The notes below the pieces were generated by a model. The model had not been told where the DNA came from. It saw nothing but the letters and a program-made list of their open reading frames with translations, and made no database searches. From assembly GCF_014636865.1 (NCBI RefSeq), contig NZ_BMER01000001.1, positions 360,718 to 424,717 of the forward strand: a stretch of DNA of 64,000 nucleotides, read 5' to 3'. Positions 38,196 through 54,883 of this stretch are shown piece after piece; position 1 is the stretch's first letter, and each line of letters starts with the position of its first letter. This DNA comes from Parapedobacter pyrenivorans. GTDB taxonomy: Bacteria > Bacteroidota > Bacteroidia > Sphingobacteriales > Sphingobacteriaceae. The translations under genes and the position numbers were made by a program.

Positions 38196-38768
38196 ATGTT
38201 AAAGTCTTTGGTCCCAGCGGTTCTCTGCTTGCTTGCGTTGCTGTCTGCATGCGAGCCGAATGGCAGTGAATCAATGGAACCTGTGCCCAAGGAAGAGTCC
38301 CCTATTTCATCAGATAATGAGGAAAAGAACCCCGGAAACCCCGTAGTCATGGACTCCAGTGCGATCCAAGCACTAGCCGAAGTGAATACCTGGCGGCAAC
38401 AAGGCTGTGACTGTGGAGAGGAGACCATGCCCCCCACCTCCATGGTAGCCTGGAATGCCGAACTCTATGCCGCAGCATTGGCCCATGCTAAGGATATGCA
38501 TACCCGCAATTATTTCAGCCATACCAGCCCCTCCGGCGAAAACGTATACCATCGGCTCATCGCCTCAGGCTACATATCCGACGCCACAGGCGTGCTTACC
38601 TACGGCGAAAACATCGCCTTCGGCGACTTCGATTTGGTGGCAGCTGTAAAAAAATGGTTGGCTAGCCCGAGCCACTGCGCAAACATGATGCGCGGCTCCT
38701 ACCGTGAAATGGCCATCGCGCATGACGGCAACTATTGGGTTCAGGTTTTTGGGGCCACACGCGAATAA
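38196..38768 (+). CDS. CAP-domain (SCP-like) lipoprotein
   Basis: A 190-residue lipoprotein (LLSAC) with an acidic linker and a CAP domain: WNAELYAAALAHAKDMHTRNYFSHTSPSGENVYHRL, YGENIAFGDF and SPSHCANMMRGSYREMAIAH, ending in YWVQVFG. The family His and Glu residues are kept (HTSP, GENI). Extracytoplasmic; role unknown. The last 28 bases overlap the end of the converging SiR-like gene. Confidence 0.88.
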   Translation: MLKSLVPAVLCLLALLSACEPNGSESMEPVPKEESPISSDNEEKNPGNPVVMDSSAIQALAEVNTWRQQGCDCGEETMPPTSMVAWNAELYAAALAHAKDMHTRNYFSHTSPSGENVYHRLIASGYISDATGVLTYGENIAFGDFDLVAAVKKWLASPSHCANMMRGSYREMAIAHDGNYWVQVFGATRE

Positions 38769-40006
38769 TACGACTTACTTAACTCCACAAGCAACGCCGG
38801 AATGACGTCCATGGCTACGCCCTTGGCATATTCGAAATACCGTAACGTATTGGGATCGAACCTTTCCGCATAGTACAGGTCAAACGATTCCGTGGAACGA
38901 TTGCCGCGCGCACCCTTTCTTTTGATGACGATACTGGTAAACCATCGCGGGCTATCTTCCGTGATGATGCTAAAGGTAAGTCCATGCGTACATATATCCT
39001 GTTGATCGAGCTCGCCGACCAGAAATTGTTTTAACTGAAGTGCTTCTTCATCCAATACGGGGATGTGCCAATTGAGTTCAAGACTGGAATGGCGCATATT
39101 GATTCCCATGCCGCCCATCAGCCTTTCCCATTCCAGGCGATCGTCATCACGTATATCTTTGATCACAAATGACTTCCATGGTGTAATATAAAAATAGGGA
39201 ATACGCCCATCGATACACAGTTGGCAGGCCCGTACCAGAAAGGGGATGTGGAAGCGGTTGTTGCGCCAGTACAAACCAAGCCACGACTTTCCATCCCCGA
39301 GGCTTTCCATCCCCTCATAACAAGGAAAATAAGGAGTGGGAAGCCGCAGGTCCTCCCTGGTTACGATGGTGTTTAATTTGATATGCTCCGCCAATCCGGC
39401 AATCAAATCGGGCAGCATCGCCATACGGTCTTTCAACAACCGTTGTTCCAGAAATACGCTCAGTTTGGCAATGTCGGTACTATGGACCAACGTGGGCCAT
39501 TTTTCAAGCCGGTCCCCCGCATGCGCGTTGCGAAGATAAAGATACCAGTACTGCGGCTTGGCTGATGCCACGAAATTAAGGTCGCCGGTAAACAGCGGGA
39601 CCATCGCCTGACGGGGGTCGGTAATATTTATTTTGAGTTGTGGCGGATGTGCAAATGCGTCCAACACCGATCTGTAACTACCCAGATCCAACCATTCGGT
39701 TGTGTTGGTAATGCCAATGGCAACGGTGCTGCTTACCAGGTTTTGAAACAAATCCCGATGTCCCTGCCTGACATCGATCTGCCGTGTCGCCAATTGTTCC
39801 GCGAGGTTCGTTAAGCTACCGCTGCGTGCCGGGAATAAGATGTCCTGCCGGGAACCAAAAAAAATAAATTCATTTCCCAATGTTCCGGAGGCTTCCAAAA
39901 TCGCCATCAGGTCCTCGGGAGTGACCATACCGCCTTTTATAAACACCCGAACCAGGTGATGTTTATCATCGCGTAGGGTTGCTGGCGTTTCCATCACGTT
40001 ATTCAT
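38741..40006 (-). CDS. Nitrite/sulfite-reductase-like protein lacking sirohaem ligands, copy 1 (no rubredoxin domain)
   Basis: A 421-residue protein that matches the gene at 53384 over its whole length: IKGGMVTPEDLMAIL, FFGSRQDILF, PQLKINITDPRQAMVPLFTGDLNFV, WPTLVHSTDIAKLS, YFYITPWKSFVIKDI, GINMRHSSLELNWHI. These are the ferredoxin-like half-domain motifs of nitrite/sulfite reductases (TPW-S-IKDI). It lacks the CX5C and CX3C cysteines that hold sirohaem and 4Fe-4S. It is 46 bases after the porin gene, so co-transcribed in the nitrate region. The function is not known to me; an electron-transfer or assembly role is possible. Confidence 0.75.
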   Translation of the reverse strand: MNNVMETPATLRDDKHHLVRVFIKGGMVTPEDLMAILEASGTLGNEFIFFGSRQDILFPARSGSLTNLAEQLATRQIDVRQGHRDLFQNLVSSTVAIGITNTTEWLDLGSYRSVLDAFAHPPQLKINITDPRQAMVPLFTGDLNFVASAKPQYWYLYLRNAHAGDRLEKWPTLVHSTDIAKLSVFLEQRLLKDRMAMLPDLIAGLAEHIKLNTIVTREDLRLPTPYFPCYEGMESLGDGKSWLGLYWRNNRFHIPFLVRACQLCIDGRIPYFYITPWKSFVIKDIRDDDRLEWERLMGGMGINMRHSSLELNWHIPVLDEEALQLKQFLVGELDQQDICTHGLTFSIITEDSPRWFTSIVIKRKGARGNRSTESFDLYYAERFDPNTLRYFEYAKGVAMDVIPALLVELSKSYYSRVAPKT

Positions 40007-40051
40007 ATCTTATGCAAAAGTACGTAAGCCATCGGCTAATCTGGCCATTTA

Positions 40052-41308
40052 TTAATTTTCGAAGAGTATCGGTTTATACGCAACCATCAGCCACCCCCAT
40101 GATGCGTTTTTACCATCGGCAATTCCTTTTGCGGCACGCAATGCATCAGCGCAACGCATGTATGAATACCCGACCTGAAGGCGGCAGGCCGCGGCCAGCT
40201 GATACGCGTAAACCACATCAAACTCCCATCCAAAAAGCGAGCCCCGTGTGAAATCATTCGCTCCATCAACCAGCGCCGCCGTCGAGGCAAAACGATGGAC
40301 ATCAACCTGCACCCGATGGTGCCGTTCCTCGTATTTTGCTTTGCTGTATAGGTCATTCAATCCCAGGTTACCGTGACCGTTTCCCACATAAAAATAGTCC
40401 ATCAAACCATAAAATTGGTGATGGGTGCCGTAAAGCGGGTCAAAGGCTTCGTTGGCGGCCGTACGGGAGTTATCGCCCGTGAGGTAGTCGCCACCCAGCT
40501 CCAACCGAAATGCCGGGCCTAGCGCGGCCGAAGCATTTAACGAGGCCAAGTGTGCGCGGACGCCATTACCCGGCCGGTCGCGCCCCCGTTGGTGGTAGTA
40601 CTCCGCAGTTAGGATCACGGGCATGAGTTTGAACGTCCCAGAGATGCCGCCGGTTTGCTTGTAATAAACGGTATCGGTTGCATATTGCCTGCTCTCATTC
40701 AATAGCAAGGCAGATAGGGATGTCTTTTGAACGACTTTGTTGAACCAGAGGAACTGCAGGGCTTTATAATTGTTCAACTGTGGGGCATAGGTGGTTTCAG
40801 CAAGCTTTCCCGGCTCGGGCACATTGGTCTCTTGGTTAAAAGCGACCGCGCCATGGATCCGTAGACCTTGGGCTGCATACTCATACTTCAGCACATCATG
40901 GCTTCGCCCCCGCTGTGCCCAGTCCAGATTGCCCAATATCCGGGCATTGTCGTAATTGAGCTCCATCCGCCCACCGGCAATGCGATGCTGCGCGTTGAAG
41001 GTATAAGCCATCCAAGCCTGTTGTAGGTTGGCAAGCCCACGATCCGTTTTGGATGCTTGATCATTATTGCCCCACATATGGATGTACTGGGGAACCAACA
41101 ACAACTCGAATTGATCCTTCTTGTAGGCTAAGTAAAGCCGCGAACGCTGTTCGGTGAAGAAGGCAGGCGATTCCTGAGGAGCGAGCGGTCGTTTGAAACC
41201 ATTTCTCAGCTCCGACCTGGGCCTGATTTCAGCCGAAAGATTGAATTGCGCAGCTGCCCCGTGAGAAAAAAGCAAGAGCAACGCCAGTAAAGCGAGATGG
41301 AACTTCAT
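40052..41308 (-). CDS. Alginate-export-family-like outer-membrane porin
   Basis: A 418-residue secreted barrel protein (signal ends HGAAAQ). FNLSAEIRPRSELRNGF, TEQRSRLYLAYKKDQFELLLVPQ, LQQAWMAYTF and a terminal WLMVAYKPILF fit the alginate_exp porin family (PF13372). No alginate genes are near. Its location at the head of an operon with a SiR-like gene and behind nitrate-region regulatory words suggests a porin for nitrate or nitrite. That role is inference. Confidence 0.78.
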   Translation of the reverse strand: MKFHLALLALLLLFSHGAAAQFNLSAEIRPRSELRNGFKRPLAPQESPAFFTEQRSRLYLAYKKDQFELLLVPQYIHMWGNNDQASKTDRGLANLQQAWMAYTFNAQHRIAGGRMELNYDNARILGNLDWAQRGRSHDVLKYEYAAQGLRIHGAVAFNQETNVPEPGKLAETTYAPQLNNYKALQFLWFNKVVQKTSLSALLLNESRQYATDTVYYKQTGGISGTFKLMPVILTAEYYHQRGRDRPGNGVRAHLASLNASAALGPAFRLELGGDYLTGDNSRTAANEAFDPLYGTHHQFYGLMDYFYVGNGHGNLGLNDLYSKAKYEERHHRVQVDVHRFASTAALVDGANDFTRGSLFGWEFDVVYAYQLAAACRLQVGYSYMRCADALRAAKGIADGKNASWGWLMVAYKPILFEN

Positions 41309-41333
41309 ACGTGTTTTTCGGTATTATATATTT

Positions 41334-41380
41334 AACGTAAAAAAACGTATATAAAATTTAATAAGCAAGTAAAATTACGC
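41334..41380 (-). promoter_or_regulatory. Regulatory copy C of the nitrate-region motif
   Basis: AACGTAA (41334-41340) and AGCAAGTAAA followed by ATTACGC (41364-41380) lie 26-72 bases before the porin ATG. AGCAAGTAAA is identical to 62735-62744 in front of nirB. Confidence 0.45.
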
Positions 41381-41479
41381 ATTTAACCAATTGGATCACC
41401 GTATGCGATGCATGAAGCTTCCTGAAGCTATTTGCTTTCCGACCGGCTTCTTATCAATTGTCCTAAGTGTTCTCAAGCT

Positions 41480-41529
41480 ATAGGTATATAATAGGAATAT
41501 TATAGGGTTTTAATAGGGTCTTTATAGGG
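41480..41529. repeat. Five ATAGG words at exact 11-bp spacing
   Basis: ATAGG begins at 41480, 41491, 41502, 41513 and 41524. The words vary only in the six bases between them (TATATA, AATATT, GTTTTA, GTCTTT, G...). CCTAT appears on the same strand at 41537 and 41555. One-turn phasing suggests several protomers of a winged-helix regulator on one DNA face. Confidence 0.7.
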
Positions 41530-41760
41530 AAAAATACCTATAATACATGGGTAACCTATTAACTACATTTCATTTACATATTGTTTAATTCAGGAAACTT
41601 GGAGAAATCAATAACGAGGGGGTAGCAAGACGGATTGACCGTTAAAACCGGGCAGTCCATGGGTGATCATTACGTAGGGAATTACTGAGTCATAATCTCC
41701 TCCTGTGTATCCCTATGATAGTTTATATATAGTTTAGCAAAAAGGCCCAAACCCGGCATT

Positions 41761-42870
41761 CTATGGGGAAACCATCAATGCTAGCGCTGTTATTCCCCCT
41801 TCTAGATGACTGAGCTTTTGGTGCGATCCTATCTTTTCCTTGAGAAATTGCCCTGCTATAAGACTTCTTTTTCCCGATTGGCAGACCAGCAACAGCTGCT
41901 TCCTGTCCATTTTCCCCAAATTATCCGACAGTTCCGCTACCGGAATATTCACATGGTTAAAGGAAAGTTCCGGCAGTTCATCCGCATTCCTCACATCAAC
42001 GATCAAGACATCCTCATCCCGATATATTTCCATAAATTCCCTTGGGCTGATGCCACGGACCACCGGGCCCTTTATACCACAGTGATAGCCATAATCGAAG
42101 GCTTCAAAGGCGGACAGCGAGGTCGGGAAGCTTGCTTCCTCCGGTAAGGTTGGCGGAATATCCAACACCATAGAACGATTATCCAACAGGCTGATGGTCA
42201 TCAATTTATTGCATAACGGCTGGCCGACCCCGACGAGGAGCTTGATGGCCTCAGTAGCCTGCATGGTTCCAATGATTCCGGGTAATACCCCCAATACTCC
42301 TACCTCATTGCAATCAGGTGCGTCCAGTGGGCCCGGGGGTAAAGGGAATAGGTGCCTGTACGTTGTTTTTACGCCGCCGCCATCCGCAACATTGAAAACA
42401 GCCAGTTGCCCTTCATACCGATAGATTGCACCAAACACCAAAGGCTTATCCAACAGCATGCAGCAATCACTGAGGAGATAACGGGTAGCAAAGTTATCCG
42501 TACAATCCAGTACCACGTCATACCCTTCGATGAGTTCGATGGCATTTTCAGTAGAAAGATATAGCACATGCTCCTGGATTTCAATTTCCGGATTTAGCAT
42601 CCTTAGTTTTGCAGCCGCGACTTCCGTTTTCGAAAGACCGATCTCGGCTGTACCGAATAATACTTGACGCTGCAGATTACTCAGTTCGATACGGTCATGG
42701 TCGATGATCCCTATTTTTCCCACTCCAGCAGCAACAAGATACTGCAGGGCCGGGCAGCCCAGACCACCTACGCCGATGATCAGAACACTGGACCGTTGTA
42801 ATCTGGTTTGTCCAGCTTCGCCAAATCCACTTAGCCTGTAGTGTTTCGAATAACGATCGTTCGTTTCCAC
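41761..42870 (-). CDS. moeB: MoeB/ThiF-type adenylyltransferase fused to a rhodanese domain
   Basis: A 369-residue enzyme, GTG start. The E1-like domain shows IIGVGGLGCPALQYL, DHDRIELSNLQRQVLF and DCTDNFATRYLL; the active Cys is in DAPDCNEVGVLG. Residues about 270-369 are a rhodanese (LIVDVRN, VCQSGKRS). It activates the MoaD C-terminus and can supply sulfur. The zinc motif is lost: CYRCLFP of the family is TYRHLFP here, and only one Cys of the second pair remains (YHCG). moaD lies 3 bases upstream. Confidence 0.92.
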   Translation of the reverse strand: METNDRYSKHYRLSGFGEAGQTRLQRSSVLIIGVGGLGCPALQYLVAAGVGKIGIIDHDRIELSNLQRQVLFGTAEIGLSKTEVAAAKLRMLNPEIEIQEHVLYLSTENAIELIEGYDVVLDCTDNFATRYLLSDCCMLLDKPLVFGAIYRYEGQLAVFNVADGGGVKTTYRHLFPLPPGPLDAPDCNEVGVLGVLPGIIGTMQATEAIKLLVGVGQPLCNKLMTISLLDNRSMVLDIPPTLPEEASFPTSLSAFEAFDYGYHCGIKGPVVRGISPREFMEIYRDEDVLIVDVRNADELPELSFNHVNIPVAELSDNLGKMDRKQLLLVCQSGKRSLIAGQFLKEKIGSHQKLSHLEGGITALALMVSP

Positions 42871-42873
42871 TGG

Positions 42874-43101
42874 CTATCCTCCCGAATAGGGCGGCATTAG
42901 CGCCACCACGTCATTCGCTTTAAACATCGTGTTTTCTTTTACAATGGTGTCATTGATCGCAATCAAAAATTTACGCCCATCTAATGCGGCGTGCTTTGAC
43001 GTAAGCAAGGCAACCAATCTGCTTGTATCCGGCGCTTCAGCATAAAACTCTCTCTCCAGTACTTCGGTCAGCGAACCAAATGTTAATATTTTTACCTTCA
43101 T
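42874..43101 (-). CDS. moaD: MoaD-type molybdopterin synthase sulfur-carrier subunit
   Basis: A 75-residue ubiquitin-like protein with the required C-terminal PPYSGG. MKVKILTFGSLTEVLE and AINDTIVKENTMFKANDVVALMPPYSGG fit the family. Its ATG overlaps the stop of the sulfite-oxidase-fold gene by 4 bases, and moeB follows 3 bases later. Confidence 0.94.
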   Translation of the reverse strand: MKVKILTFGSLTEVLEREFYAEAPDTSRLVALLTSKHAALDGRKFLIAINDTIVKENTMFKANDVVALMPPYSGG

Positions 43102-43601
43102 AAATTTACACGAAAAAATCTAATTGTTTGCAACTGCTTTACGTAGCGCCGGCCGGTGGCAATGTCTTCTGGAGAAAGTAACGCAAGCTCACCTCCCTGC
43201 TTACCATTTGTAGCCTCTTTGATATTAGTGACCACCAGTACATTGTCGCCGATTGGCGTGTTGAACAACTCGTTCCAGGAGAACACCACTTTATACCCAT
43301 CGGTCGCTATACATACGATATAATATTCACTCAGCACCTTTGGCGACTCTTCGCCTAAAGCCATGTCCGTTAAAACATTTTTCAGTAAGGCTCCTTTTAC
43401 GCCCTTCAATGTCGAACGGTACTCGCCCGCATGGTTGTATATACGCAGACGGTCTAGCGACTGAAGGGTAACACCCGTTAACTTTTCAAAGGTAAGTGTT
43501 GTTTTTTTGTTGTCAGGCGTTACAATGTCGATATTCTTTACGTTCTGGGCACGAAGCCACATGCAGGACAAGATCAAAAAGGTTGTTATTGTCGATTTCA
43601 T
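43098..43601 (-). CDS. Small periplasmic sulfite-oxidase-fold (oxidoreductase molybdopterin-binding-like) protein
   Basis: A 167-residue secreted protein (signal ends WLRAQ). The body resembles a truncated PF00174 fold: GVKGALLKNVLTDMALG, YYIVCIATDGYKVVFSWNELFNTPIGDNVLVVT, KQGGELALLSPEDIATGRRYVKQLQTIRFFRV. The Cys that ligates Mo in sulfite oxidases is not seen in the usual motif. Its position between a TSUP transporter and moaD suggests it may bind molybdenum or molybdopterin, or a relic of an oxidoreductase. Function unproven. Confidence 0.7.
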   Translation of the reverse strand: MKSTITTFLILSCMWLRAQNVKNIDIVTPDNKKTTLTFEKLTGVTLQSLDRLRIYNHAGEYRSTLKGVKGALLKNVLTDMALGEESPKVLSEYYIVCIATDGYKVVFSWNELFNTPIGDNVLVVTNIKEATNGKQGGELALLSPEDIATGRRYVKQLQTIRFFRVNL

Positions 43602-43607
43602 ATTTAT

Positions 43608-44336
43608 TTATACTGTTGTGAACAATAATTTATAGGCAGCCATCAAAAGAACGGTAGCCAAAACGTGTTTTAGAGCATTCTGATTCAATTTTTTTGATCC
43701 CAAATAAGCGCCTAACAAACCACCTACGAACGCAGCGGCAATGTAGAGCCACATATCGGAATTAAAGGTGATACCCTGCGCAAACATACCGCCCAAGCCC
43801 GACAGCGAGTTTACAAAAATAAAGGCAGCGCTAACGGCGGCACTCTGTTTCTGATCTGTCCATTTCAACAGGATCAACAAGGGAGACAGAATGATCCCAC
43901 CACCGATACCGATCAGGCCGGACAGCAATCCGACAACAGCACCTATAGCCACGGCTCCGAAAATATTATAAGGTTTCAGTTCGCCCTCACCCGGACTTCT
44001 GAAAAAGAAAAATCGAATAATGGGGAAAAGTAAAAGAACACCGAGTACGCGTTTATAAAGATTATCATCCAGTGTAATTGTACCCCCGATAAACGCCATG
44101 GGTATGGAAGCAGCAGCAACCGTGAGAAAGAGGTTCCTTTTGAAAAAATGTCCCCTATAATATTGAACGAAGGAGGTCAGGGAAACAAACAGGTTCAATA
44201 CCAACGCTGTAGGCTTCATTTCCTGTGGAGCTATCCCGTACAAGGCCATCAAAGCCAGGTAACCACTGGCCCCGCCATGTCCCACGGAAGCGTATAAGAA
44301 GGCGACAAAAAAAAGTATAATATAAAACCATTCCAT
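43608..44336 (-). CDS. TSUP (TauE/SafE) family transporter
   Basis: A 242-residue protein with about eight helices. FYASVGHGGASGYLALMALYGI, FVSLTSFVQYYRGHF, VGLLSGLIGIGGGIILSPLLILLKW and GAYLGSKKLNQNALKHVLATVLLMAA fit the family. TSUP proteins move sulfite, sulfonates and related anions. Its operon partners are the TonB receptor, the SUOX-like protein and MoaD/MoeB, so molybdate, sulfite or another oxyanion is possible. Starts 3 bases after the receptor stop. Confidence 0.85.
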   Translation of the reverse strand: MEWFYIILFFVAFLYASVGHGGASGYLALMALYGIAPQEMKPTALVLNLFVSLTSFVQYYRGHFFKRNLFLTVAAASIPMAFIGGTITLDDNLYKRVLGVLLLFPIIRFFFFRSPGEGELKPYNIFGAVAIGAVVGLLSGLIGIGGGIILSPLLILLKWTDQKQSAAVSAAFIFVNSLSGLGGMFAQGITFNSDMWLYIAAAFVGGLLGAYLGSKKLNQNALKHVLATVLLMAAYKLLFTTV

Positions 44337-44339
44337 AGT

Positions 44340-46145
44340 TTAACGTTTGTAAACAAGATTACTATAAAACACACGTTCCGGTTCATAAAATCCTTCTGTA
44401 AGCGTAAAATTTTTATCGAAGATATTGTTTACACCACCTTCAATAGAAAACCATTTCCATACCTTGATACCGACACTTGCATTAAAAAGGGGAAAGCCGG
44501 GCGACCCTGTTCCGTATGGAGTACTATAACGGTTAGCATTATGTTCCATATTGGTCTGCACTCGAAACCTGTCATTCAGATCGTAACCTGCCATGAGCAT
44601 CAGTTTATGACGAGGCACATCCACTAGGTAGATTTCCGGATTGCTGATATTGTTCCTTTTAATGAAGGTATCGTTTGATCCGATAATAAAGGTCGGAATG
44701 ATGTGATAATTTGCAGCAACTTCAAACCCCATGTACTCACGGTCACCGGCGTTCTGCAATTGATTGAGCCACATATCAGCATCTTCATCGTACTGTACGT
44801 TGTTTACCATAAGCATGGTTCAACTGATTTTACTGTAAAATAAGGAACCATCCAAAAACAGGCGGTTGAACAACCTGTTGCTGTAGGTCAGATCATAGTT
44901 AACAGACTGCTCTGCCTTAAGGTCGGGATTGGGGATTGTCGTACCCATCAGGTAGGAATAACGGTCCTTCGGCGTAGCAAATCTTGTTTTTTTACCAGCA
45001 GATAGGTTTAGTTGTTGATTGGGCGTTAACCGATACTGTAAGGCCCCTTGTATATTAAAGGCATTATTGGAGTTGGATGGATAATTGCTGATCTCATCCG
45101 TATCGGCATTATAATCTTCCGCGCTAAAACTCTTTCTATTATTGTAACTTACACCAGCTGTTAAGTCCAATACTTCTGTTATCCTAAAGCGATCTTCTAT
45201 AGCCAAGGTAAAATTTCCGTCGTTCATATTTTGTTCGGGTTCTCCCAGATCGTATTCACGGCGAACATCTTGCTTATATTGGACGGAGGTTGAAAGGAGG
45301 TTACGCATGCCTATTTGGTAGTCATGCTGAACAATACCGCCAATGGTATAGTCGTTGTAGATACTGGAAAAGGCATAGCCACGCTCCATTGTTATGAAAG
45401 TGGCGTCATCCCAGGAGTTCAGGAGGTTTTTGAACACGTCATAATAAATCCGTGTTTTGAATGCAACCTTGATATGATATTTCCGATCATGCTGGTATGA
45501 ATTTTCCCGTCGTCCACCGTCTTCAAATTCGGCAGGTGTGAATTTTTTTGACATCGGGAAAAAATCACGGTTCAATTGGGAAAAAGATGCCTGCACGTAA
45601 AAGCGATCCCATTTTGAACCGACATTGAAATTGGTCCGGTAGCCTCCTGATATGTAGCCTGTAGCCCCCTGTATTTCCAACTCTTTTTCGGGTCTTCTTG
45701 TAATGACATTTATAGCCCCTCCTAAAGCGTTCGGGCCATACAATACCGAAGCATTTCCTTTAGAAACCTGAACTTCCGAGACATCAAACGTGGTAAACCT
45801 GCCCAGATCGACCGTGCCGTCATAGGGAACATATACTGGGATGCCGTCGATAAATAAGGGGACCTGCCGAAGATCAAAACCCCGAACGTTGACCACGCTT
45901 TCGTTTCTTGCTCCGATAGAGGTGAGTGTCACGCCCGGTAACAGATTTAACGCAGTGGCCGCATCGTTTTTGCCATATTTTTGGATCTGCTCCGCGCTGA
46001 CGGTATTGACGTTCTTTTGACCAATCACGGAAACTTCCCCCAGCTTGAAGACGTTCTTTATATCATCTGTTTCGGCCGGAGACTGCGCCCATGAGTGCTG
46101 GATTGAAAAACATACAAATGCTGGTAAAAGAAATTTTAAATTCAT
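44340..46145 (-). pseudogene. TonB-dependent receptor interrupted by an in-frame TGA
   Basis: One frame, 46145 to 44340, encodes a receptor of about 600 codons but is broken by TGA at 44822-44820 (after LFYSKIS). The next codons are ACC then ATG, and the same frame continues MLMVNNVQYDEDADMWLNQLQNAGDREYMGFEVAANY to the barrel end VYKR. The N-terminal part is intact: signal ending HSWAQ, plug with LNLLPGVTLTSIGARNESVVNVRGFDLRQVPLFIDGIPVYVPYDG and VSKGNASVLYGPNALGGAINVIT. It is a nonsense mutation, sequencing error, or readthrough. It leads the TSUP/moaD/moeB unit. Confidence 0.85.
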
Positions 46146-46309
46146 GTATGGGATTGTTAAATAAATAAGATTCAATATGATCACCTGCTGAAATCACTTC
46201 ATCGCCCCTGGAACAATGATTAGGTAGTTTGCTTGCGCATCGGATTGCAATCGATGGATTCATGCGCATGCAGTGGCATTAACGAATTTTCATATTATCT
46301 TCATATTTT

Positions 46310-46389
46310 TACGTAAATAAACTTATTTTTGTTCAAAAAAATACTTATTTTTCATAAAAACAAGTAAATTATTAAAAATAACTACGTAA
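46310..46389. promoter_or_regulatory. Regulatory copy A (duplicate of the nirB upstream region)
   Basis: TACGTAA occurs at 46310 and 46383 (73 bases apart), with TACTTAT at 46342 and AAGTA at 46362 between. The same four words appear in the same order at 62685-62763. It lies between the TonB receptor unit and the decayed SUMT-like copy. TACTTAT fits the NarL heptamer TACYYMT. Confidence 0.65.
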
Positions 46390-46410
46390 TTACACTTAAA
46401 TAATAAAACA

Positions 46411-46560
46411 ATGGAGTATTCACTACTCAAAAACACAGGGGATTTGGCCTATTATGACAACAGAGGAAGTAAACGAGTCCAAACAGGCGATATTATCTGC
46501 CCCGAGGAGCGGCGATTATGATATGCCGTGGTATGGAGGAAGTGTTGCAGCTATTCCTAT
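46411..46560 (+). pseudogene. Decayed 5' copy of the SUMT-like gene
   Basis: ATG at 46411 opens MEYSLLKNTGDLAYY, then RVQTGDIICPEE, matching MRYSLLKNMGNADYA and RIQSGDIIWPDA of the gene at 62787, and stops with TGA at 46519. Beyond the stop, CRGMEEVLQLF in a shifted frame matches CNSMEEVFRLC of the intact gene, showing an internal deletion and frame loss. The copy ends before moaA. No product is expected. Confidence 0.8.
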
Positions 46561-46568
46561 CTGCTTTT

Positions 46569-47558: not shown

Positions 47559-47594
47559 GGCAGATCCGTTTAGTGCAAGGTTGCCATAGGCCAC

Positions 47595-48254
47595 CTACAG
47601 GATATTTTCTTTCATCGCTTTATTGATCATGTCCACGGCATTATTGACTGCCAGCTTTTTCATGATATTGAACCGGTGGGTCTCGATGGTCCTTACGCTT
47701 TTCCCCAGCAGCTCGGCGATGTCCTTATTGTGTTTACCATCGACTACCAGGGCCAATATTTGCCTCTCCCGTTTGGAAAGTCCGTACGCGTCTCTTTTCT
47801 CACCCGTACTTAATGCAGGTTGCTTTGCCGAACCTAGCAGTTGGTTAGCCAATATATTGGATACCGATCCGCTGTAATAGCGTACACCGTTATTGATTTG
47901 TTTGATTGCCCGGATAAACTCGCCTTTATCCGTATCCTTGAGTAGGTATCCCCACGCCCCGGCCGAGAGCGATTGCAATACGTATTCCTCATTGTCATGC
48001 ATGGAGAGCATCACTACTTTTGTTGATACCCGGTCCTGTGTCAGGATCGCACATGCTTCCAAACCGTTCATCTCGGGCATCCGGATATCCATGATGGCTA
48101 GATCGGGTAGTCGTGTTTTGATCAGGTCCACTGCCTGCCGGCCATTGTTGGCTTCCCCTACCACGTCAATCTCTCGGTCGGCTTCCAACATGGCTTTGAT
48201 TCCATCGCGCACCAATACGTGATCATCAATCAGAACTACACTTATTTTATCCAT
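47595..48254 (-). CDS. NarL/FixJ-type response regulator
   Basis: A 219-residue regulator with a receiver domain (IDDHVLVRDGIKAML, MDIRMPEMNG with the phosphoacceptor Asp, LSAGAWGYLLKD) and a C-terminal LuxR helix-turn-helix (LSKRERQILALVVDGKHNKDIAELLGKSVRTIETHRFNIMKKL). Paired with the NarX-like kinase one base upstream. Its location among nitrate genes suggests it answers nitrate or nitrite and controls this region. Confidence 0.94.
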   Translation of the reverse strand: MDKISVVLIDDHVLVRDGIKAMLEADREIDVVGEANNGRQAVDLIKTRLPDLAIMDIRMPEMNGLEACAILTQDRVSTKVVMLSMHDNEEYVLQSLSAGAWGYLLKDTDKGEFIRAIKQINNGVRYYSGSVSNILANQLLGSAKQPALSTGEKRDAYGLSKRERQILALVVDGKHNKDIAELLGKSVRTIETHRFNIMKKLAVNNAVDMINKAMKENIL

Positions 48255-48255
48255 G

Positions 48256-50103
48256 TTACAAAATTATCGGGTTCTCTGCCAAAGGTACGAAAAGCTTTAC
48301 AATCGTTCCCCTGTCTTTCTCCGATTGGATATCGAGTGTGCCGTTTATATAAGCGGCTCGCTCGCGCATATTGAGAAACCCATGGCCAAAATCCGCGTGA
48401 ATGGTATCGGTGGCCTGCTTTTCGAATCCCCGGCCAAAGTCCCGTACGGTCACCACCAGGTAGGTATCGTCGTGTTGCAGCATCAAGTCTATCCGCTCCG
48501 ACGCGGCGTATTTAATGGCGTTGTTCAATGCTTCCTGTACGATCCGGAAGACATTGTTTTCAACTTTGGAGTTCATGCGCTGGCTGAAACCCGTATCGTT
48601 GCGGAACGCCACCTCTGCTTGGCTCGTTCGGTCTATTTCCTGGGCTAGTGTTTTCAATCCAGCAGCCAGTCCATAGTCACTAAGCACAGGTGGATTGAGA
48701 TTGAAGGTGACCCGCCTGACTTCCTGTATGACATTCCCAACCAACTGGTTTATCTCGTCCAATTTGCTGTGGGCCTCTTGGTGCTTGCCTATATCAATGG
48801 ATGCCAATTGGAATTTCAACGAAGTCAGCAGTTGCCCGATGCCATCGTGGATATTCATGGCTATCCGTTTCCGCTCTTCTTCCTGTCCCTCCAGCACCAA
48901 TATGGAGCGGAATTTCTGCTCATTGATCTTACGTTCGATCTCTGCCCTGTCTTTCCGGTATATCCCCTGCTCAGCTAGTCTTTTGGCAGTCAGGTCCACA
49001 GCCATGATATTCAGGTGTGCCACCTGGCCGTTTTCGGTATAAATGGGCACCACGTGGATATCCAAATAAGTAGTATCTCCGCTATGATCGCGGATCACAA
49101 CCTCTTCGTGCCAATTCCTGCCATCCGAAACGACGTCAACCAGGTTATCCATGAAATTGTCTGCCGCGTCTCCCTCCATTCCAATCAACTGAGCTATACT
49201 GCCACCAGGTACAACCGGCCTTCTTTCCAACATTTTCGTAAACGACAGAAATAACTCGACGATGTTTCCACCACGATCCGCTTTGGCGACCAACTGCGGG
49301 GAGGAAACGGGTATCGAAATGGCCGATATCTTTTCATAGGAAGCTTCCAGTGAGTTGTATAGCGCCCCAATTTCATTGCTCATCTGTTGTGCATCCTGCT
49401 CGGACTTGATTAATTTGGTTAAGGTTTGGCTAATATGTCTCGTCGTGGGCATGAATATCAGCAGGATTTCCAGCAAAATTACGGTCAATGCCACGGCCAA
49501 CAACCCGAATTCGGTATACTTCAACCGCGCTACCTTCTCGGCGGCCACAGACTCCAGCCGGTACACGGTGCGCTCCATTCCAGCCAGGAAGAGGCGTTCG
49601 TGTTCCAGTATCGTTACCACCCAAGGTTCGAGTGCCGTAAAGCTCGCCATCAAATCCGCTTGCAGCATGCTGCTCAGCATTCCGCTAGCTTCCACCATCG
49701 CCACAAAATGCGGGCGGCATTCAGCCAACAGGTGTTCGACCAACACATCAGTATTGGGTGGTAGCAGCAACGTATCGCTACCATGCAGGAGGGCCTCCTG
49801 TGCCATTACCCATTCCCCTCGCGCCGCTGCTAAGCGGTGCAGGGCGTCCAACCGCCCGACGCTATCCGGGTATATACGCAACTCAAGGGCCACTTTCGCC
49901 AGTTGCTGCCCCAGCATACGCTGTCTACCGGCCACATTGATCAGACGCGCATCGCTTTCCTGCTCATGCAGGTGGTGCTGCACCAAAAATTGCCCCAGCA
50001 CAATGCTCAGCGCAATAGCGCTCAGAGCCAACAGGTAATATAGGCGCAATCGGCTAAACTGATGTCTCTGCGGCACGGAGGGTATTTCCTGTTCGGTATT
50101 CAT
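48256..50103 (-). CDS. NarX-like sensor histidine kinase
   Basis: A 615-residue membrane kinase. TM1 (about 21-41) precedes the periplasmic domain with INVAGRQRMLGQQLAKVALEL (about residues 55-75), comparable to the NarX/NarQ P-box and PF13675 nitrate sensors. TM2 (about 200-218) is followed by a PAS-like region (about 270-370), the HisKA_3 phosphoacceptor His419 (NIHDGIGQLLTSLKFQL) and an HATPase (NNAIKYAA, DFGRGF, GHGFLNMRERA). It pairs with the following response regulator. The ATG at 50103 is used; TTG at 50112 is the alternative. Confidence 0.9.
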   Translation of the reverse strand: MNTEQEIPSVPQRHQFSRLRLYYLLALSAIALSIVLGQFLVQHHLHEQESDARLINVAGRQRMLGQQLAKVALELRIYPDSVGRLDALHRLAAARGEWVMAQEALLHGSDTLLLPPNTDVLVEHLLAECRPHFVAMVEASGMLSSMLQADLMASFTALEPWVVTILEHERLFLAGMERTVYRLESVAAEKVARLKYTEFGLLAVALTVILLEILLIFMPTTRHISQTLTKLIKSEQDAQQMSNEIGALYNSLEASYEKISAISIPVSSPQLVAKADRGGNIVELFLSFTKMLERRPVVPGGSIAQLIGMEGDAADNFMDNLVDVVSDGRNWHEEVVIRDHSGDTTYLDIHVVPIYTENGQVAHLNIMAVDLTAKRLAEQGIYRKDRAEIERKINEQKFRSILVLEGQEEERKRIAMNIHDGIGQLLTSLKFQLASIDIGKHQEAHSKLDEINQLVGNVIQEVRRVTFNLNPPVLSDYGLAAGLKTLAQEIDRTSQAEVAFRNDTGFSQRMNSKVENNVFRIVQEALNNAIKYAASERIDLMLQHDDTYLVVTVRDFGRGFEKQATDTIHADFGHGFLNMRERAAYINGTLDIQSEKDRGTIVKLFVPLAENPIIL

Positions 50104-50114
50104 CCAAGTCAAAG

Positions 50115-50708
50115 CTACAAATTATCGGGGTGGTTGTAATTGCTGAAACAGTCGTCATAGTCCGTACCGTGGGGTAGTCTGGTGGCTTCTACTAGATCGA
50201 GCATATGCATCATGCTGTGGTTCGCCAAACCTTCTGTGACAGCCCATCCGGTCACCGTTGCCAGGGCCAGCCGGGAATAGAGGCCACATAAGGGCTGCGG
50301 ATAACCGTCATACTCGTAGACAAGGGCGGGGCATGGCTTATCGACAAAACACTTCACCAGGTATTGCAGCAATATTTCCTGCATGGCCACCATATCACAG
50401 GCAAGTACCAATAAGTTTGCCGAAGGATGTCGCAAATGCACACTCAACAAACCATGCAACGGACCGCCGATAGGTAACTGGTCATTGTCTACCACACACT
50501 CCGCATAAGGGAGAACCGCCCGGTAGCTGTCCGCTTGCTGCGCATTTACAGATAGCACAACCGAAGGTACCACCACGCCCAACCGTTCGTATACGTGTTG
50601 CGCCCAAGTTTTATCACCGATTGGCAATAAACCCTTATCGGTGCCCATCCGCACACTCCGTCCACCGCAAAGCACTACGCCAACCATTTCCATCGCGGTA
50701 TCATCCAT
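50115..50708 (-). CDS. mobA: Molybdenum cofactor guanylyltransferase
   Basis: A 197-residue nucleotidyltransferase. VVLCGGRSVRMGTDKGLLPIG is the MobA motif, followed by GGPLHGLLS and ACDMV. It makes the bis-MGD form needed by the nitrate reductase. The start overlaps the moaC-moaB stop by 8 bases. Confidence 0.94.
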   Translation of the reverse strand: MDDTAMEMVGVVLCGGRSVRMGTDKGLLPIGDKTWAQHVYERLGVVVPSVVLSVNAQQADSYRAVLPYAECVVDNDQLPIGGPLHGLLSVHLRHPSANLLVLACDMVAMQEILLQYLVKCFVDKPCPALVYEYDGYPQPLCGLYSRLALATVTGWAVTEGLANHSMMHMLDLVEATRLPHGTDYDDCFSNYNHPDNL

Positions 50709-51618
50709 GATCGTGCCTCATCCCGCCTGCCACCCTGAAAACATGGGTAATGTATGGAAAAAGGGCTCCCATCGTTTCCACAGCGCCCCTGGTAGATCCC
50801 GGCAGGGTAAGCACCAGCGTATTTCCCATGAAGCCTGCCACCCCCCGCGAGAGCATGGCGTAGGGCGTACGTTCTTGTCCATAACTCCGCGCGGCTTCCA
50901 TTACGCCTGGTATTTCGCGATCGAGCAGCGGCGCAATAGCATCCGGCGTGACATCCCTCGGCGACAATCCTGTACCGCCGGTAAATACCAACAAGTCATA
51001 CCCTTCCCCACTCAGCCGACGGGCATGTTCCTGGATAAGCACAACATCATCCGGGATAATCACATACGAAGCGGTATCCAGGTGATACCTACGCAATTGT
51101 TCGATCACCGCTTTCCCGGCAGTATCCTGCTTCTTTCCATCAGCTACGCTATCTGAACAGACAACCACGGCACAGCGCAGTTGGGGGGACACATGCTGGA
51201 CGTAGGTAGACTTGCCACCGGACTTGCGCTCCAGCTTGATAGCGGAAATCTCCACATTAGGATCAATCGGCTTCAGCATATCATACATCGTAAGGGCAGT
51301 TATCGAAGCCCCGTGCATGGCCTCCACTTCGACACCGGTTTTGTAGATGGTATGCACTTCCACGCGGACAGTGATGGTCATGTCGGCAATTTCATAGGTA
51401 ATGGAAGCGAATTCTATGGGCAGCGGATGGCAATCGGGAATCACATCGCTAGTTTTCTTGATGGCCAACAGCCCCGCAGCACGCGAAAACTCGAAGACAT
51501 CTCCTTTTGGTACACGCCTGTCCTTGACCGCGTCGATGGTCTCCGGCGTCGACACGCTTACCGTGGCCGTGGCCACCGCTTGGCGCAAACTGGTTACTTT
51601 ATGGGTGATATCTACCAT
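50701..51618 (-). CDS. Bifunctional MoaC-MoaB fusion
   Basis: A 305-residue fusion. Residues 1-148 are MoaC (MVDITHKVTSLRQAVA, PIDPNVEISAIKLERKSGGKS; DCHPLPI in place of the usual CHP-L motif), the cyclic pyranopterin monophosphate synthase. Residues 150-305 are MoaB/Mog-like (VVVCSDSVADGKKQDTAGKAV, FTGGTGLSPRDVTPDAI, GSTRGAVE). One protein thus covers an early and a late step. moaE follows on the upstream side, 5 bases away. Confidence 0.93.
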   Translation of the reverse strand: MVDITHKVTSLRQAVATATVSVSTPETIDAVKDRRVPKGDVFEFSRAAGLLAIKKTSDVIPDCHPLPIEFASITYEIADMTITVRVEVHTIYKTGVEVEAMHGASITALTMYDMLKPIDPNVEISAIKLERKSGGKSTYVQHVSPQLRCAVVVCSDSVADGKKQDTAGKAVIEQLRRYHLDTASYVIIPDDVVLIQEHARRLSGEGYDLLVFTGGTGLSPRDVTPDAIAPLLDREIPGVMEAARSYGQERTPYAMLSRGVAGFMGNTLVLTLPGSTRGAVETMGALFPYITHVFRVAGGMRHDHG

Positions 51619-51623
51619 GGCAG

Positions 51624-52064
51624 CTAGCTATTTGTTTTCCACTGGTGGGTCTCGTCTTCGAACACCTCCCTACCCCAAATGGGAAATTCTGCCTTGATGC
51701 GCTCCACCAACTCGTCACAGGCATCCAATGCAGCTCGCCGATGCGGCGCCGAGGTGAATACGAAAAGGCAAATCTCGCCTACCGCTACCCGCCCCAGGCT
51801 ATGGTAAACGTGCATGCATGTGAGTGGATACTTGGCAAAAGTCTCCTCGCGGATACGATGCATCTGTTGACAAGCCATGCGTTCGTATGCGGTATACTCG
51901 ATTGCAGCTACGGTTTGTTCGCCAACCGTATCGGCTCGCACCTGGCCCAGGAAAATGCCGTGTGCACCGATACCTACCTTGCTGCTGTGCGCGGCGATGC
52001 CATCAGCGATGAATACCGGGGAGATGGGCTCATGCACAAAAATATTCTTAATTTTGTGTTCCAT
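51624..52064 (-). CDS. moaE: Molybdopterin synthase catalytic subunit
   Basis: A 146-residue enzyme that, with MoaD-SH, puts sulfur on the pterin. GIFLGQVRAD, IEYTAYERMACQQM, HVYHSLGRVAVGEICLFVFTSAPHRRAALDACDELVERIKAEFPIWGREVF match the family. It sits between moaC-moaB and moeA. Confidence 0.95.
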   Translation of the reverse strand: MEHKIKNIFVHEPISPVFIADGIAAHSSKVGIGAHGIFLGQVRADTVGEQTVAAIEYTAYERMACQQMHRIREETFAKYPLTCMHVYHSLGRVAVGEICLFVFTSAPHRRAALDACDELVERIKAEFPIWGREVFEDETHQWKTNS

Positions 52065-52111
52065 TCCTTAAAGCTATTAACGTTGTCCACATCATTCTTT
52101 CAAGTGTTTTT

Positions 52112-53290
52112 TTAGGGTAATGGCTGTACTTGCACCACCATACCCTGATTAAACGATTCCATTGCTTCGGGCAAGCAAACCAAGCAGTTCGATACTGCGA
52201 ACGAACGCAATCGGTACGACTCCTGGGCAGATAGTACCTGTACGTCATTTTCGTTGAAATACCCCTTGAGAAAATGGGTTAGCCCAGGCTTTTTCTGCCC
52301 TTGGCTTGCAATGGCCAACTGGAGCGGCTCCGGCATCAGTCGCCGCTGGGTGAGTAGTTCCAACGCGGGTACTACATACTCGTAAAAGCACACCAGTACA
52401 GAGGCGGGGTTGCCGGGCAGGCCAAAGACGGGCTTCTGCCCTTTCGTACCAAAATACAGCGGCTTGCCCGGTTTTTGGCGCACTTTGTAGAACTGCTTTT
52501 CCACTTCGCATTGCTTGAGCGCGCGGTTTACGTAATCGTAATCACCTACGCTGATGCCACCGGAAACCAACACGACATCCGCCGATTGCAGTGCCTCGTC
52601 GAGCTGCTCGGTGGTTTGTGAAAGATCGTCGCCCACGTACCTCACGACCACTTCGGCAACCTGCAACTGCTGCAGCGCAGCACGCAGCGCATAGGAGTTA
52701 GACTCGTATACCTGGCCATGCTGCAGGGGTTGCCCGGGTTTAGCCAGTTCGTTGCCGGTAACGATGATACATACCCTCGGACGGGGCACCGCAACAACCG
52801 CTGACCGGCCGATGCCGGCCAAAAAGCCGATCGCTGCCGGGCTAAGTACCGTGCCCTGCTGCATCGCAACTGTTCCTTCCTGGATATCGGATCCCTGTGG
52901 CCGCACATTACCTCTTTGCTGCAATTGCCGATCGTCGATTACCAATTGCCCATCGGCAACCTTTGCCAACTCCTGCATGACCACCGTATCTGCTTGTGCC
53001 GGCATTGGTGCACCCGTAAAAATCCGGACAGCCGTCTGCGCTTCCAAAACCCGCGGTAAGCGGCTGCCCGCTGCAACCGCTCCGGCAAGGCGCAATGCGC
53101 CTGATGCAATGTCAGCAAACCGGAACGCATAGCCGTCCACCGCCGCTTGGTCAAATGGCGGAAAATCGCCATCCGCCGCGCAGTCTTCCGCCAGCATACA
53201 GCCCCAGGCGTCGTCCAGCCTTACCTCGCGGGCCGCCAACGGCTCAATCCGTGCTCGGATAATTTCCTTCGCTTCTTGTACGCCAATCAT
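52112..53290 (-). CDS. moeA: Molybdopterin molybdotransferase
   Basis: A 392-residue enzyme inserting molybdenum. DGDFPPFDQAAVDGYAF, VRIFTGAPMPAQADTVVMQE, VCIIVTGNELAKPGQPLQHGQVYESNSYALRAAL, VSGGISVGDYDYV and VFGLPGNPASVLVCFYEYV are the family blocks. Upstream neighbour is the rubredoxin-fused SiR-like gene, with an 18-codon open frame between. Confidence 0.96.
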   Translation of the reverse strand: MIGVQEAKEIIRARIEPLAAREVRLDDAWGCMLAEDCAADGDFPPFDQAAVDGYAFRFADIASGALRLAGAVAAGSRLPRVLEAQTAVRIFTGAPMPAQADTVVMQELAKVADGQLVIDDRQLQQRGNVRPQGSDIQEGTVAMQQGTVLSPAAIGFLAGIGRSAVVAVPRPRVCIIVTGNELAKPGQPLQHGQVYESNSYALRAALQQLQVAEVVVRYVGDDLSQTTEQLDEALQSADVVLVSGGISVGDYDYVNRALKQCEVEKQFYKVRQKPGKPLYFGTKGQKPVFGLPGNPASVLVCFYEYVVPALELLTQRRLMPEPLQLAIASQGQKKPGLTHFLKGYFNENDVQVLSAQESYRLRSFAVSNCLVCLPEAMESFNQGMVVQVQPLP

Positions 53291-53293
53291 ACA

Positions 53294-53350
53294 CTAATAC
53301 AACACTTGCTTCCATTCTCCGATGGACAGGGTAGCAGGAGGTTTTTCCAT
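53294..53350 (-). other. 18-codon open frame before moeA
   Basis: ATG GAA AAA CCT CCT begins MEKPPATLSIGEWKQVLY and stops with TAG 3 bases before the moeA ATG. It is the only notable feature in a 93-base gap of an otherwise tightly packed unit. It could be a leader peptide, a remnant, or chance. Confidence 0.3.
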
Positions 53351-53383
53351 GTTCGAAATTACACATTTTTTAATTATCGTCAG

Positions 53384-54883
53384 CTAAAGTGACGCGCGGG
53401 TTGTATCTGCATACAGGTAGTCCACGGCGATTTCCCTGAATTGCTGTGCTTCTGTCCTACACAACGGGCAGTGGTAATCCAGTGGCAACGCCTCAAATGC
53501 TGTGCCCGGCACAATCCCCTGCTCTTCATCGCCAATGACGGGGTCATATACCGTAAGGCAGGCACGGCATTGGTAAACCTGTCGCAACTCGGTGGGTGTT
53601 GCCACCGGCTTTTCATCACCCTGCGGCAACAGGTCGATACCCTGCTCATGATCGAAATAAAACGAATTGCACAGCAAAACCAGGTTCTTGGCGATGGTTT
53701 GCTTTGGAATAGCTTTTTTGAACAATACGAGTTCATTGGCGTTTGGATTGAAATCTTTCGTATAGAGGATGTCAAAGCGGTCTGCAGCATCCGGGGATTT
53801 TGGGTATTCTCGGCCGCCCTTCCGAATAACAATGGAGCCGAACATGCTGGAGCGGGGCCGTGTCTGTATGGCAAAACAGAGGCCATAGGTGCGTACATCC
53901 TTGCGGTCGAAATACTGGATGATGGTCCGCTTCAGTGCGGCAACATCGTCTTTGTTGTCTTCAATTTGCCAATTCAGCTCATTGGCCGCATGCCGCACAT
54001 TGATGCGGTGCCTGCTGAGCACCTGCCCCCAAACACTACGCTGTGCTTGAGGAATATCTTTGATGATGATGCTCTTCCAGGGCGTGGTGTAGAGCTGGGC
54101 TACCTTCGCCTGCTGGCAGAGGGCGCAGATGTCTTTCAGGAAGGCCACATTGAACAGCTCGTCTCTACGGTAGATACCCAACCAATAGGCATTACCGCTC
54201 TTGTTGAACCCTTCATAGTAAAACAGTTCGAACCGATTTGGCTGGATGGGCATATCCTGTCCCTTGGCGATATAGCTGACCCGCTTGCGCAATGCCGCAT
54301 AAAGGTCTTCTCCCACCAATTCCGGCCCATACCCACCCGCAGCCTTCTGTTGCAGGATGATGCGTTCAAGTGCCCGGGATACCCGTGCGATATCGTTGGT
54401 GTACACCAATTCCGGCCACTGGTAGTAGGTGCCGCTCTTCGGAAAACGGAGGCAAAGACGCCAATAGTGTGCTGATGCCGAGGTGACCCAATTGATGTGG
54501 CCGGTAAACAGCGGCACGAAGGTCTGCAATTGGTCGCAGATATTAATTTTTAACCGCGGGGTATAGTCAAACAGATCAAACACGTCTTTGTACACCCCTT
54601 CCCGTAACCAGGTGTCATCTACCGCAATATTGACGGCGGGATAGGAGCTGACGATATTGGGCGGCGCACTGCCATAGGTATACGCCGGTATCCGATGGCG
54701 CCCGCAGGTTTCCAAAAAAACGGTTCTGCGCTTGGCGGGGATGTTTACGATCATATCCTGGCGCAGCCCGAAGCGTACATGGGATACACCGATATCCGAG
54801 AGGAGGCTGAGTATAGCCTTCAATTGGCCCGGCGAAACAATACCGCCCTTGAAATGGATGATATAGGTGCGTTGACGTTCCAT
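53384..54883 (-). CDS. Nitrite/sulfite-reductase-like protein without sirohaem ligands, fused to C-terminal rubredoxin
   Basis: A 499-residue protein. Residues 1-410 match the gene at 38741: HFKGGIVSPGQLKAIL, FGLRQDMIV, PRLKINICDQLQTFVPLFTGHINWV, WPELVYTNDIARVS, LYTTPWKSIIIKDI, INVRHAANELNWQI. The CX5C/CX3C sirohaem-4Fe4S motif is absent. Residues about 438-480 form a rubredoxin domain: CRACLTVYDPVIGDEEQGI with a second pair in YHCPLC, all four iron ligands present. It lies one base after the nitrate reductase fusion. It could shuttle electrons to nitrate reductase or act in cofactor handling; function not known to me. Confidence 0.82.
   Translation of the reverse strand: MERQRTYIIHFKGGIVSPGQLKAILSLLSDIGVSHVRFGLRQDMIVNIPAKRRTVFLETCGRHRIPAYTYGSAPPNIVSSYPAVNIAVDDTWLREGVYKDVFDLFDYTPRLKINICDQLQTFVPLFTGHINWVTSASAHYWRLCLRFPKSGTYYQWPELVYTNDIARVSRALERIILQQKAAGGYGPELVGEDLYAALRKRVSYIAKGQDMPIQPNRFELFYYEGFNKSGNAYWLGIYRRDELFNVAFLKDICALCQQAKVAQLYTTPWKSIIIKDIPQAQRSVWGQVLSRHRINVRHAANELNWQIEDNKDDVAALKRTIIQYFDRKDVRTYGLCFAIQTRPRSSMFGSIVIRKGGREYPKSPDAADRFDILYTKDFNPNANELVLFKKAIPKQTIAKNLVLLCNSFYFDHEQGIDLLPQGDEKPVATPTELRQVYQCRACLTVYDPVIGDEEQGIVPGTAFEALPLDYHCPLCRTEAQQFREIAVDYLYADTTRASL

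Follow-up and report, generated by a model that had tools for sequence, protein, structure and literature searches.

A rubredoxin-bearing protein with a sirohaem-reductase-like fold accompanies a fused assimilatory nitrate reductase in Bacteroidota and may act as its redox partner

In a 64,000-nucleotide stretch of Parapedobacter pyrenivorans DNA (hereafter the window; contig NZ_BMER01000001.1, positions 360,718 to 424,717), two genes, P0001 and P0002, encode proteins that resemble sirohaem-dependent nitrite and sulfite reductases (SiR) and lack their cluster cysteines, with P0002 additionally carrying a rubredoxin. Here we report that P0002 is a member of a large Bacteroidota family that tracks an assimilatory nitrate reductase fused to NADH/FAD/[2Fe-2S] modules. 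Based on sequences and predicted models, we propose tentatively, at a little less than an even chance, that the NADH-dependent, assimilatory fusion enzyme encoded directly upstream could have P0002 as its dedicated redox partner.

The association with the fused enzyme was followed in 151 genomes of the window's family, Sphingobacteriaceae, and 395 genomes of the phylum. In the family, 44 of the 45 fusion-bearing genomes have the P0002-type gene, and none of the 106 without the fusion do (Fisher p 1.7e-37, to be read with the caution that the genomes are not independent; 12 of 25 genera), and in the lone exception, G132, the contig ends no more than about 30 bases from the 3′ end of the enzyme gene, where the P0002-type gene would lie. 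The fusion search returned 47 genomes, from which G036 and G052, having no full fusion match, were left out, while the fusions of G007, G027 and G132 were matched in part or in pieces. NirB was found above the cut-off in 53 genomes and in two pieces in G003; all 44 carriers have it, and the nine genomes with NirB and no fusion (G017, G026, G032, G052, G057, G076, G131, G140 and G141) have no P0002-type gene. In 43 of the 44 carriers the gene shares contig and strand with the fusion and lies directly downstream of it, at a median distance between matches of 54 bp and at 300 bp or less in 39; in G122 it lies on another contig.

The phylum sample, in which two to three candidates were scored per genome, gave 36 matches, and seven of these were rubredoxin only and were excluded from the family. 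Of the remaining 29 carriers, 28 have both the fusion and NirB, and in G272 neither was found; adjacency held in all 26 that were measured (the 29 less G000, G014 and G272), with 23 at 300 bp or less. The corresponding fusion search returned 46 genomes, 13 of which had no full fusion match and were not counted, and the P0002-type gene is absent from 13 genomes with unfused homologues only (8 of them at 501-547 bits). A wider contig collection matched at least 593 stretches and confirmed 582, and among the best 80 of these 582 a nitrate reductase frame lies upstream in 77 by table reading and within 700 bp in 68 by script; all 80 are Bacteroidota by title, bar one metagenome-assembled genome (MAG) titled Williamsia (L093). 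One of the three remaining loci, L158, spans just 3.4 kb of contig, and a piece of the nitrate reductase tail was seen at a contig end in the genome it comes from. The earlier note on this DNA had proposed a search for co-occurrence with the fusion, and had named a missing link to nitrate genes in other genomes as a reason to give up its idea; the search bore out the link.

Family members also reside on plasmids, as 4 of 72,556 plasmid records matched, all from Bacteroidota genera. The 330 kb plasmid of Hymenobacter volaticus carries a nitrate cluster (NZ_CP095062.1, 81374-88990) in which the member, annotated 'rubredoxin', sits between the nitrate reductase and cobA, and the member on a Spirosoma oryzicola plasmid bears the same annotation (two of two annotated plasmid records). 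Further plasmid copies were seen in Spirosoma and Persicobacter. In Arachidicoccus ginsenosidivorans (L110, 6460-9956) the fused nitrate reductase is in five pieces, and the adjoining rubredoxin protein is intact.

The two genes of the window lie on the minus strand, which the earlier note had left unstated, and their proteins align over residues 21-414 of P0001 and 9-409 of P0002 (34% identity, E 1.7e-72). That note had described a common full-length motif set, an absence of CX5C and CX3C, and an intact rubredoxin in the second protein, and all three descriptions hold: PLFTG, TPWKS...KDI and NMRH/NVRH..ELNW occur in both; a pattern check found neither CX5C nor CX3C in either protein and recovered both in the window's NirB (C639-X5-C and C679-X3-C) as positive control; and PF00301 matches residues 437-482 of P0002 at 62.8 bits against a cut-off of 23. 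No rubredoxin domain was found in P0001, which stops short of its position, nor in the corresponding copies of G063 and G073 (loci L068 and L069). The cysteines for the cluster and sirohaem are gone, and the SiR-like pair is unlikely to be the nitrite reductase, as had been argued from the complete NirB of the window. A CX2C pair in the second half-domain had been overlooked (C253/C256 in P0002, C261/C264 in P0001).

Structure prediction, another check suggested earlier, matches the greater part of each protein to NirA and sulfite reductase. The AlphaFold models (mean pLDDT 89.1 for P0002 and 87.7 for P0001) predict a two-lobed SiR fold, and their best Foldseek match is NirA 1zj8 (E 8e-18 for P0002 and 1.7e-18 for P0001; query-normalised TM-score 0.58 for P0002, rubredoxin included, and 0.73 for P0001); solved plant nitrite reductase and sulfite reductase haemoprotein (SiRHP) match as well. 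The ferredoxin-like half-domain of nitrite/sulfite reductase, PF03460, exceeds its cut-off of 24 in both proteins (35.5 and 29.4 bits) and matches all 22 members scanned, and the 4Fe-4S/sirohaem domain PF01077 is listed for none of the 22 at E up to 1. Searching the PDB by sequence with a single protein returned mainly rubredoxins for P0002 and no relevant match for P0001; with a profile of the SiR-like part, SiRHP came up no better than E 1.1, and comparisons of thin profiles gave weak results (63.7% for two SiR/NirA sequences, 9.3% for NirB). Against a profile of 14 SiR/NirA-type sequences, 405 columns aligned at E 6e-7 and a probability of 92%, with a score of 61.9 compared with at most 27.2 for 60 column-shuffled controls and 20.7 for the reversed one, which puts the apparent SiR kinship of the two proteins beyond chance.

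Of the four cluster cysteines, three have no counterpart in this profile alignment, where the P0002 family shows gaps of 11 residues, and the fourth stands opposite Leu303, a leucine in 135 of 136 members. Therefore, taking together the models, the profile match, the gapped cysteines and the low control scores, the P0002 family looks like a SiR fold in which both cysteine loops have been shortened, the exact placing being alignment-dependent. Weak NCBIfam matches also led to a check of precorrin-3B synthase, CobG, itself a SiR-family protein, and this identity was rejected: TIGR02435 has some match to 10 of 23 members (best E 8e-6), and its scores lie far under the cut-off (15.9 bits against 234.8 for P0001; P0002 is unlisted). 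The P0002 family also differs from CobG in its nitrate-operon context.

Residue conservation was evaluated over 136 distinct sequences of 141 members. The invariant residues include R41, W92, N131, W141, E224, G225, W234, E302 and K318, while H298, K270, N295 and N114 are kept in 135 and R297 in 134; among 23 aligned members, 34 columns are invariant. This conservation contradicts a reading of the genes as decaying, functionless pseudogenes, to which the loss of the catalytic cysteines would lend itself and to which we assign next to no probability; 44 of the 47 listed matches are free of internal stops, and the operon position is steady. The four rubredoxin cysteines are present in all 132 rubredoxin-bearing members, the other four being P0001 and the copies of G063, G073 and G272. 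In one locus (L121, 9980-11338) the rubredoxin has a shortened loop with all four cysteines kept.

Within the body, the best-kept cysteine pair is the CX2C (C253 in 129 and C256 in 134 of the 136), and nine members miss one of its cysteines, eight of which have the fused nitrate reductase; a required role of this pair is therefore weakened. The other body cysteines are less regular (C336 71%, C405 57%, C311 51%, C265 35%). C311, absent from both P0001 and P0002, lies eight residues past the position opposite the last CX5C cysteine, and a partial cysteine near the old cluster site is thus conceivable in about half of the family. A cysteine set at equivalent positions in close homologues had been named earlier as an argument against a sirohaem-free protein: C253/C256 lie elsewhere in the alignment, which leaves that idea standing, and the partially kept C311 near the old site qualifies it. 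At the positions of SiRHP R83, R153, K215 and K217, the arginines and lysines serving substrate and sirohaem, the alignment-dependent counts are Lys/Arg in 90, Arg in none (Pro in 107), Lys/Arg in 69 and Lys in 130 of the 136, and the family does not show the full set.

The conserved polar residues could alternatively belong to a new redox enzyme, with a different iron site or other cofactor (non-haem iron, or sirohaem without its cluster) in the old SiR-like pocket. Such an enzyme would draw electrons, by way of its own rubredoxin, from the NADH-FAD part of the nitrate reductase next to it, and would remove nitric oxide (NO), nitrite by-products or another by-product of nitrate reduction, with His298, Glu302, Arg297, Asn295 and Arg41 as candidate iron-site residues. 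R41, E302 and K318 (136 members), H298, K270 and N295 (135) and R297 (134) may line the pocket, the NO reductase NorV, which is fused to a rubredoxin and served by the reductase NorW, offers an architectural parallel, and NF003954 matches the P0002 rubredoxin at 33.2 bits (cut-off 711). The available part of one study likewise states that Bradyrhizobium NasC can make NO and that its donor Flp was proposed to serve the globin Bjgb too (PMC4724949). We nevertheless regard this function as a long shot: no known metal motif has been demonstrated, and the position of SiR Arg153 is proline in most members and arginine in none.

Tree distances were compared to identify the genomic partner. In the 39 of the 80 loci with full-length partners, the partial correlation of the SiR-like part was 0.37 with the nitrate reductase, 0.02 with NirB and 0.10 with NarK, which likewise adjoins the nitrate reductase in the window, and an earlier calculation on 42 sets that omitted NarK gave 0.46 for the nitrate reductase versus 0.03 for NirB. 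Together with the absence of the P0002 type from the nine genomes that have NirB and no fusion, these correlations point to the nitrate reductase rather than NirB as the partner. They also bear on two alternatives in which NirB would take part. In one, P0002 would couple the fused nitrate reductase to NirB, passing electrons or nitrite between the two enzymes and thereby preventing a rise in nitrite; carriers have both enzymes in 44 of 44 family and 28 of 29 phylum cases, the gene is missing where NirB (0/9) or the fusion (0/5) occurs alone, and a comparable role has been proposed for NasG in Paracoccus, according to the portion of the paper available (PMC4724949). Because the P0002 type occurs where both enzymes do, listed exceptions aside, this alternative was retained. 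It is nonetheless distinctly doubtful: NirB shows no independent coevolution signal, the genomes with the fusion alone are distant lineages whose lack of the gene may reflect descent, and a Rieske-type NirD is already encoded in the window.

In the other alternative P0002 would be a sirohaem chaperone or carrier for NirB, close to the cofactor-chaperone module for nitrate reduction that the earlier note had entertained. It would fit the SiR-like fold, the basic SiR-pocket residues of which some are kept, and the NirB and tetrapyrrole methylase genes near P0002 in the window, but all nine NirB genomes without the fusion lack the P0002 type, which weakens it, and no coevolution with NirB was seen beyond that of the nitrate reductase; we hold it to be very improbable.

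We return to the proposal that P0002 could serve the fused nitrate reductase as redox partner. Its SiR-like body, which probably no longer reduces nitrite, would dock P0002 onto the nitrate reductase, and the rubredoxin iron would take electrons from the FAD module of this enzyme, whose domains, Pyr_redox_2 and Rubredoxin_C (the latter a reductase C-terminal domain), would be those of NADH:rubredoxin reductases such as NorW. From the rubredoxin the electrons might go on to the molybdenum half, or they might be relayed between the two reductases, for nitrate and for nitrite. The FAD half matches NorW (NF003437) at 158.8 bits, under the cut-off of 392, and the nitrate-reducing activity ascribed to the fused enzyme rests on gene context and on NasC similarity of 509.6 bits, under the cut-off of 1100. 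The electron-transfer module for nitrate reduction suggested by the earlier note thus survives as the best reading, being one that we infer.

Co-occurrence and adjacency were both observed, with G272, L159, L111 and five fusion genomes as exceptions, and these and several other points weigh against the redox-partner proposal. With an NADH/FAD/[2Fe-2S] module already built into the nitrate reductase, the need for a further rubredoxin is not obvious, and P0001, without rubredoxin, implies that the SiR-like fold is useful without it. The distance correlation could stem from tight linkage and joint transfer rather than from contact. Five fusion genomes of the phylum sample, from distant families (G157, G199, G300, G324 and G363), have no P0002-type gene, and NirB was not found in them either, these phylum absences being less sure than those of the family sample because of the few candidates scored per genome. 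At L111 the gene lies away from the nitrate reductase, which is elsewhere in that genome; the MAG of L159 has a family member, and the fused nitrate reductase was not found in it; and G272 has a member without rubredoxin near a contig end (read from L066 in place of the partial L038), with the fused enzyme again not found. The loci with the fusion and without a SiR-like protein of this family are L061-L065 (G363, G199, G157, G324 and G300, in this order), of which three were checked with Pfam. Beside the fusion, L061 has a CysJ-type FNR, L062 an FNR and a flavodoxin, and L064 a SiR/NirA-type gene; in G199 and G157 a SiR-type match lies about 2-3 kb from the fusion.

The same co-occurrence and position would also be expected of a maturation or stability factor, in which the body would bind the apo nitrate reductase and the rubredoxin would sense iron or redox state, carrying no catalytic electrons. 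The gene run of P0002 leads straight into the molybdenum cofactor (Moco) genes moeA, moaE, moaC and mobA in the window, P0001 lacks the rubredoxin, and the body evolves fast, as is often true of accessory proteins (in the 42 sets its mean pairwise identity is 52%, whereas the nitrate reductase reaches 72% and NirB 75%). However, the rubredoxin cysteines kept in every rubredoxin-bearing member fit electron transfer, and the five fusions manage without a P0002-type protein; we judge a maturation factor unlikely, though it deserves serious attention.

P0001 represents a rarer form, present in 3 of the 151 family genomes, each of which also has the P0002 type. Of the earlier statement that both genes sit in nitrate operons, the half concerning P0002 stands, as it lies within the nitrate/Moco gene run, whereas P0001 lies about 14 kb off, next to a porin gene and near MoeB, and its membership of a nitrate cluster is based mainly on two other genomes. 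There, in G063 and G073, the P0001-type copy follows nirB, nirD, transporter, kinase, regulator and porin genes (the transporter was verified in L068). A tree of 90 sequences (every third of the 80 loci, the genome-search set and chosen others; quick method, midpoint root, long-branch warnings) unites P0001 and the two copies with support of 100, nested within sequences from other families that do have a rubredoxin, and separate from P0002. Because of this nesting, P0001 looks like a second form that lost the rubredoxin and not like an ancestor. It may bind the same partner as P0002, possibly without carrying electrons.

Compared with NirA, plant nitrite reductase and SiRHP, the P0002 family shares the two-lobed fold, PF03460 and the long profile match, and differs by the missing PF01077 and CX5C/CX3C, by having no arginine at R153, and by a CX2C elsewhere. 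In the NorV/NorW system, the FAD reductase NorW is the electron donor to the flavorubredoxin NorV. It resembles P0002 and its neighbour in the C-terminal rubredoxin on a large redox protein and in the Pyr_redox_2 plus Rubredoxin_C reductase; however, the P0002 body is SiR-like, not flavodiiron, and the nitrate reductase carries the FAD reductase as a fused part. NasG is of the Rieske type. NasG and NirD are, like P0002, small iron redox modules conserved in nas clusters, as far as the available part of the NasG paper goes, and NasG in Paracoccus is thought there to bring electrons from the NADH site to both reductases (PMC4724949); P0002 instead has its rubredoxin on a SiR-like body, and the window has a separate NirD. 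The algal NIRFU, a nitrite reductase-rubredoxin-FNR fusion of Micromonas and relatives, shares the NirA-type fold, the rubredoxin on the C-terminal side and nitrate assimilation in the portion of its description available (PMC5344333), and differs by the added FNR, while the SiR part of P0002 lacks the cysteines and its proposed reductase is in another protein.

The excerpts available for Aquirufa list a 'rubredoxin' in the nitrate operon (PMC12528234) and give rubredoxin as a gene present (PMC10821818), and the operon 'rubredoxin' is presumably the same protein as the P0002 type. In the open-licence literature searched, as far as its texts were available, no experimental study of the P0002 family was found. 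The earlier note had called the module new; the family is common, annotated 'rubredoxin' in the plasmid records above and apparently listed in Aquirufa. Annotation does not show that, by the predicted models, the bulk of the protein is a NirA fold without its cysteines. Because annotation names only the rubredoxin tail, a component of nitrate assimilation has seemingly been overlooked, and our findings suggest that the P0002 type is an unstudied helper of one particular nitrate reductase in nitrate-using Bacteroidota. Should these bacteria require it as a redox partner, their two-enzyme scheme of nitrate reductase and NirBD would be incomplete, and the family would offer a natural example of a sirohaem enzyme fold put to another use once its cofactor ligands had gone.

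In the window, the genes from nirB through nirD, narK, nitrate reductase, P0002, moeA, moaE, moaC, mobA, sensor kinase and response regulator to moaA run on one strand with gaps of at most 93 bp, and may form a single transcript; the P0002 gene starts 1 bp downstream of the nitrate reductase gene (Table 1).

Table 1. Genes of the window and the G272 copy
Feature	Position	Strand	Remarks
P0001, SiR/NirA-like fold (predicted), paralogue without rubredoxin	38741-40006	-	421 aa
Outer-membrane porin-like gene	40052-41308	-	Alginate_exp; adjoins P0001 here and in G063/G073
MoeA, MoaE, MoaC-MoCF, MobA-like, PilJ-type histidine kinase, LuxR-type response regulator, MoaA	46569-53290	-	downstream of P0002
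P0002, SiR/NirA-like fold domain (predicted) without cluster cysteines (about 1-410) and C-terminal rubredoxin (437-482)	53384-54883	-	499 aa
Fused assimilatory nitrate reductase (putative)	54885-58409	-	1174 aa; 4Fe4S/molybdopterin, Pyr_redox_2, Rubredoxin_C, BFD [2Fe-2S]
NarK-type nitrate/nitrite transporter of the major facilitator superfamily	58436-59800	-	TIGR00886 311.0 bits, just under cut-off 311.7
NirD-type Rieske small subunit	59748-60125	-	Rieske_2
NirB, complete sirohaem nitrite reductase	60167-62671	-	with CX5C/CX3C
G272 copy, family member without rubredoxin	L066 63-1556	+	near contig end; NirB not found in genome

Several further genes of the window were noted. A strongly divergent tetrapyrrole methylase of the SUMT/CobA-like type (62787-63521, plus strand), which faces NirB and adjoins another methylase gene, scores 41.7 bits against a cut-off of 185, and G063 and G073 have a similarly divergent copy at the same place (28-30% identity). 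A 167-aa protein (43098-43601, minus strand), for which no Pfam or NCBIfam match was obtained at E up to 1, adjoins a TauE-type exporter near the Moco genes. Downstream of MoaA, a gene named by eye as a TonB-dependent receptor (44340-46184, minus strand) is broken by one in-frame TGA and is therefore read as two open reading frames.

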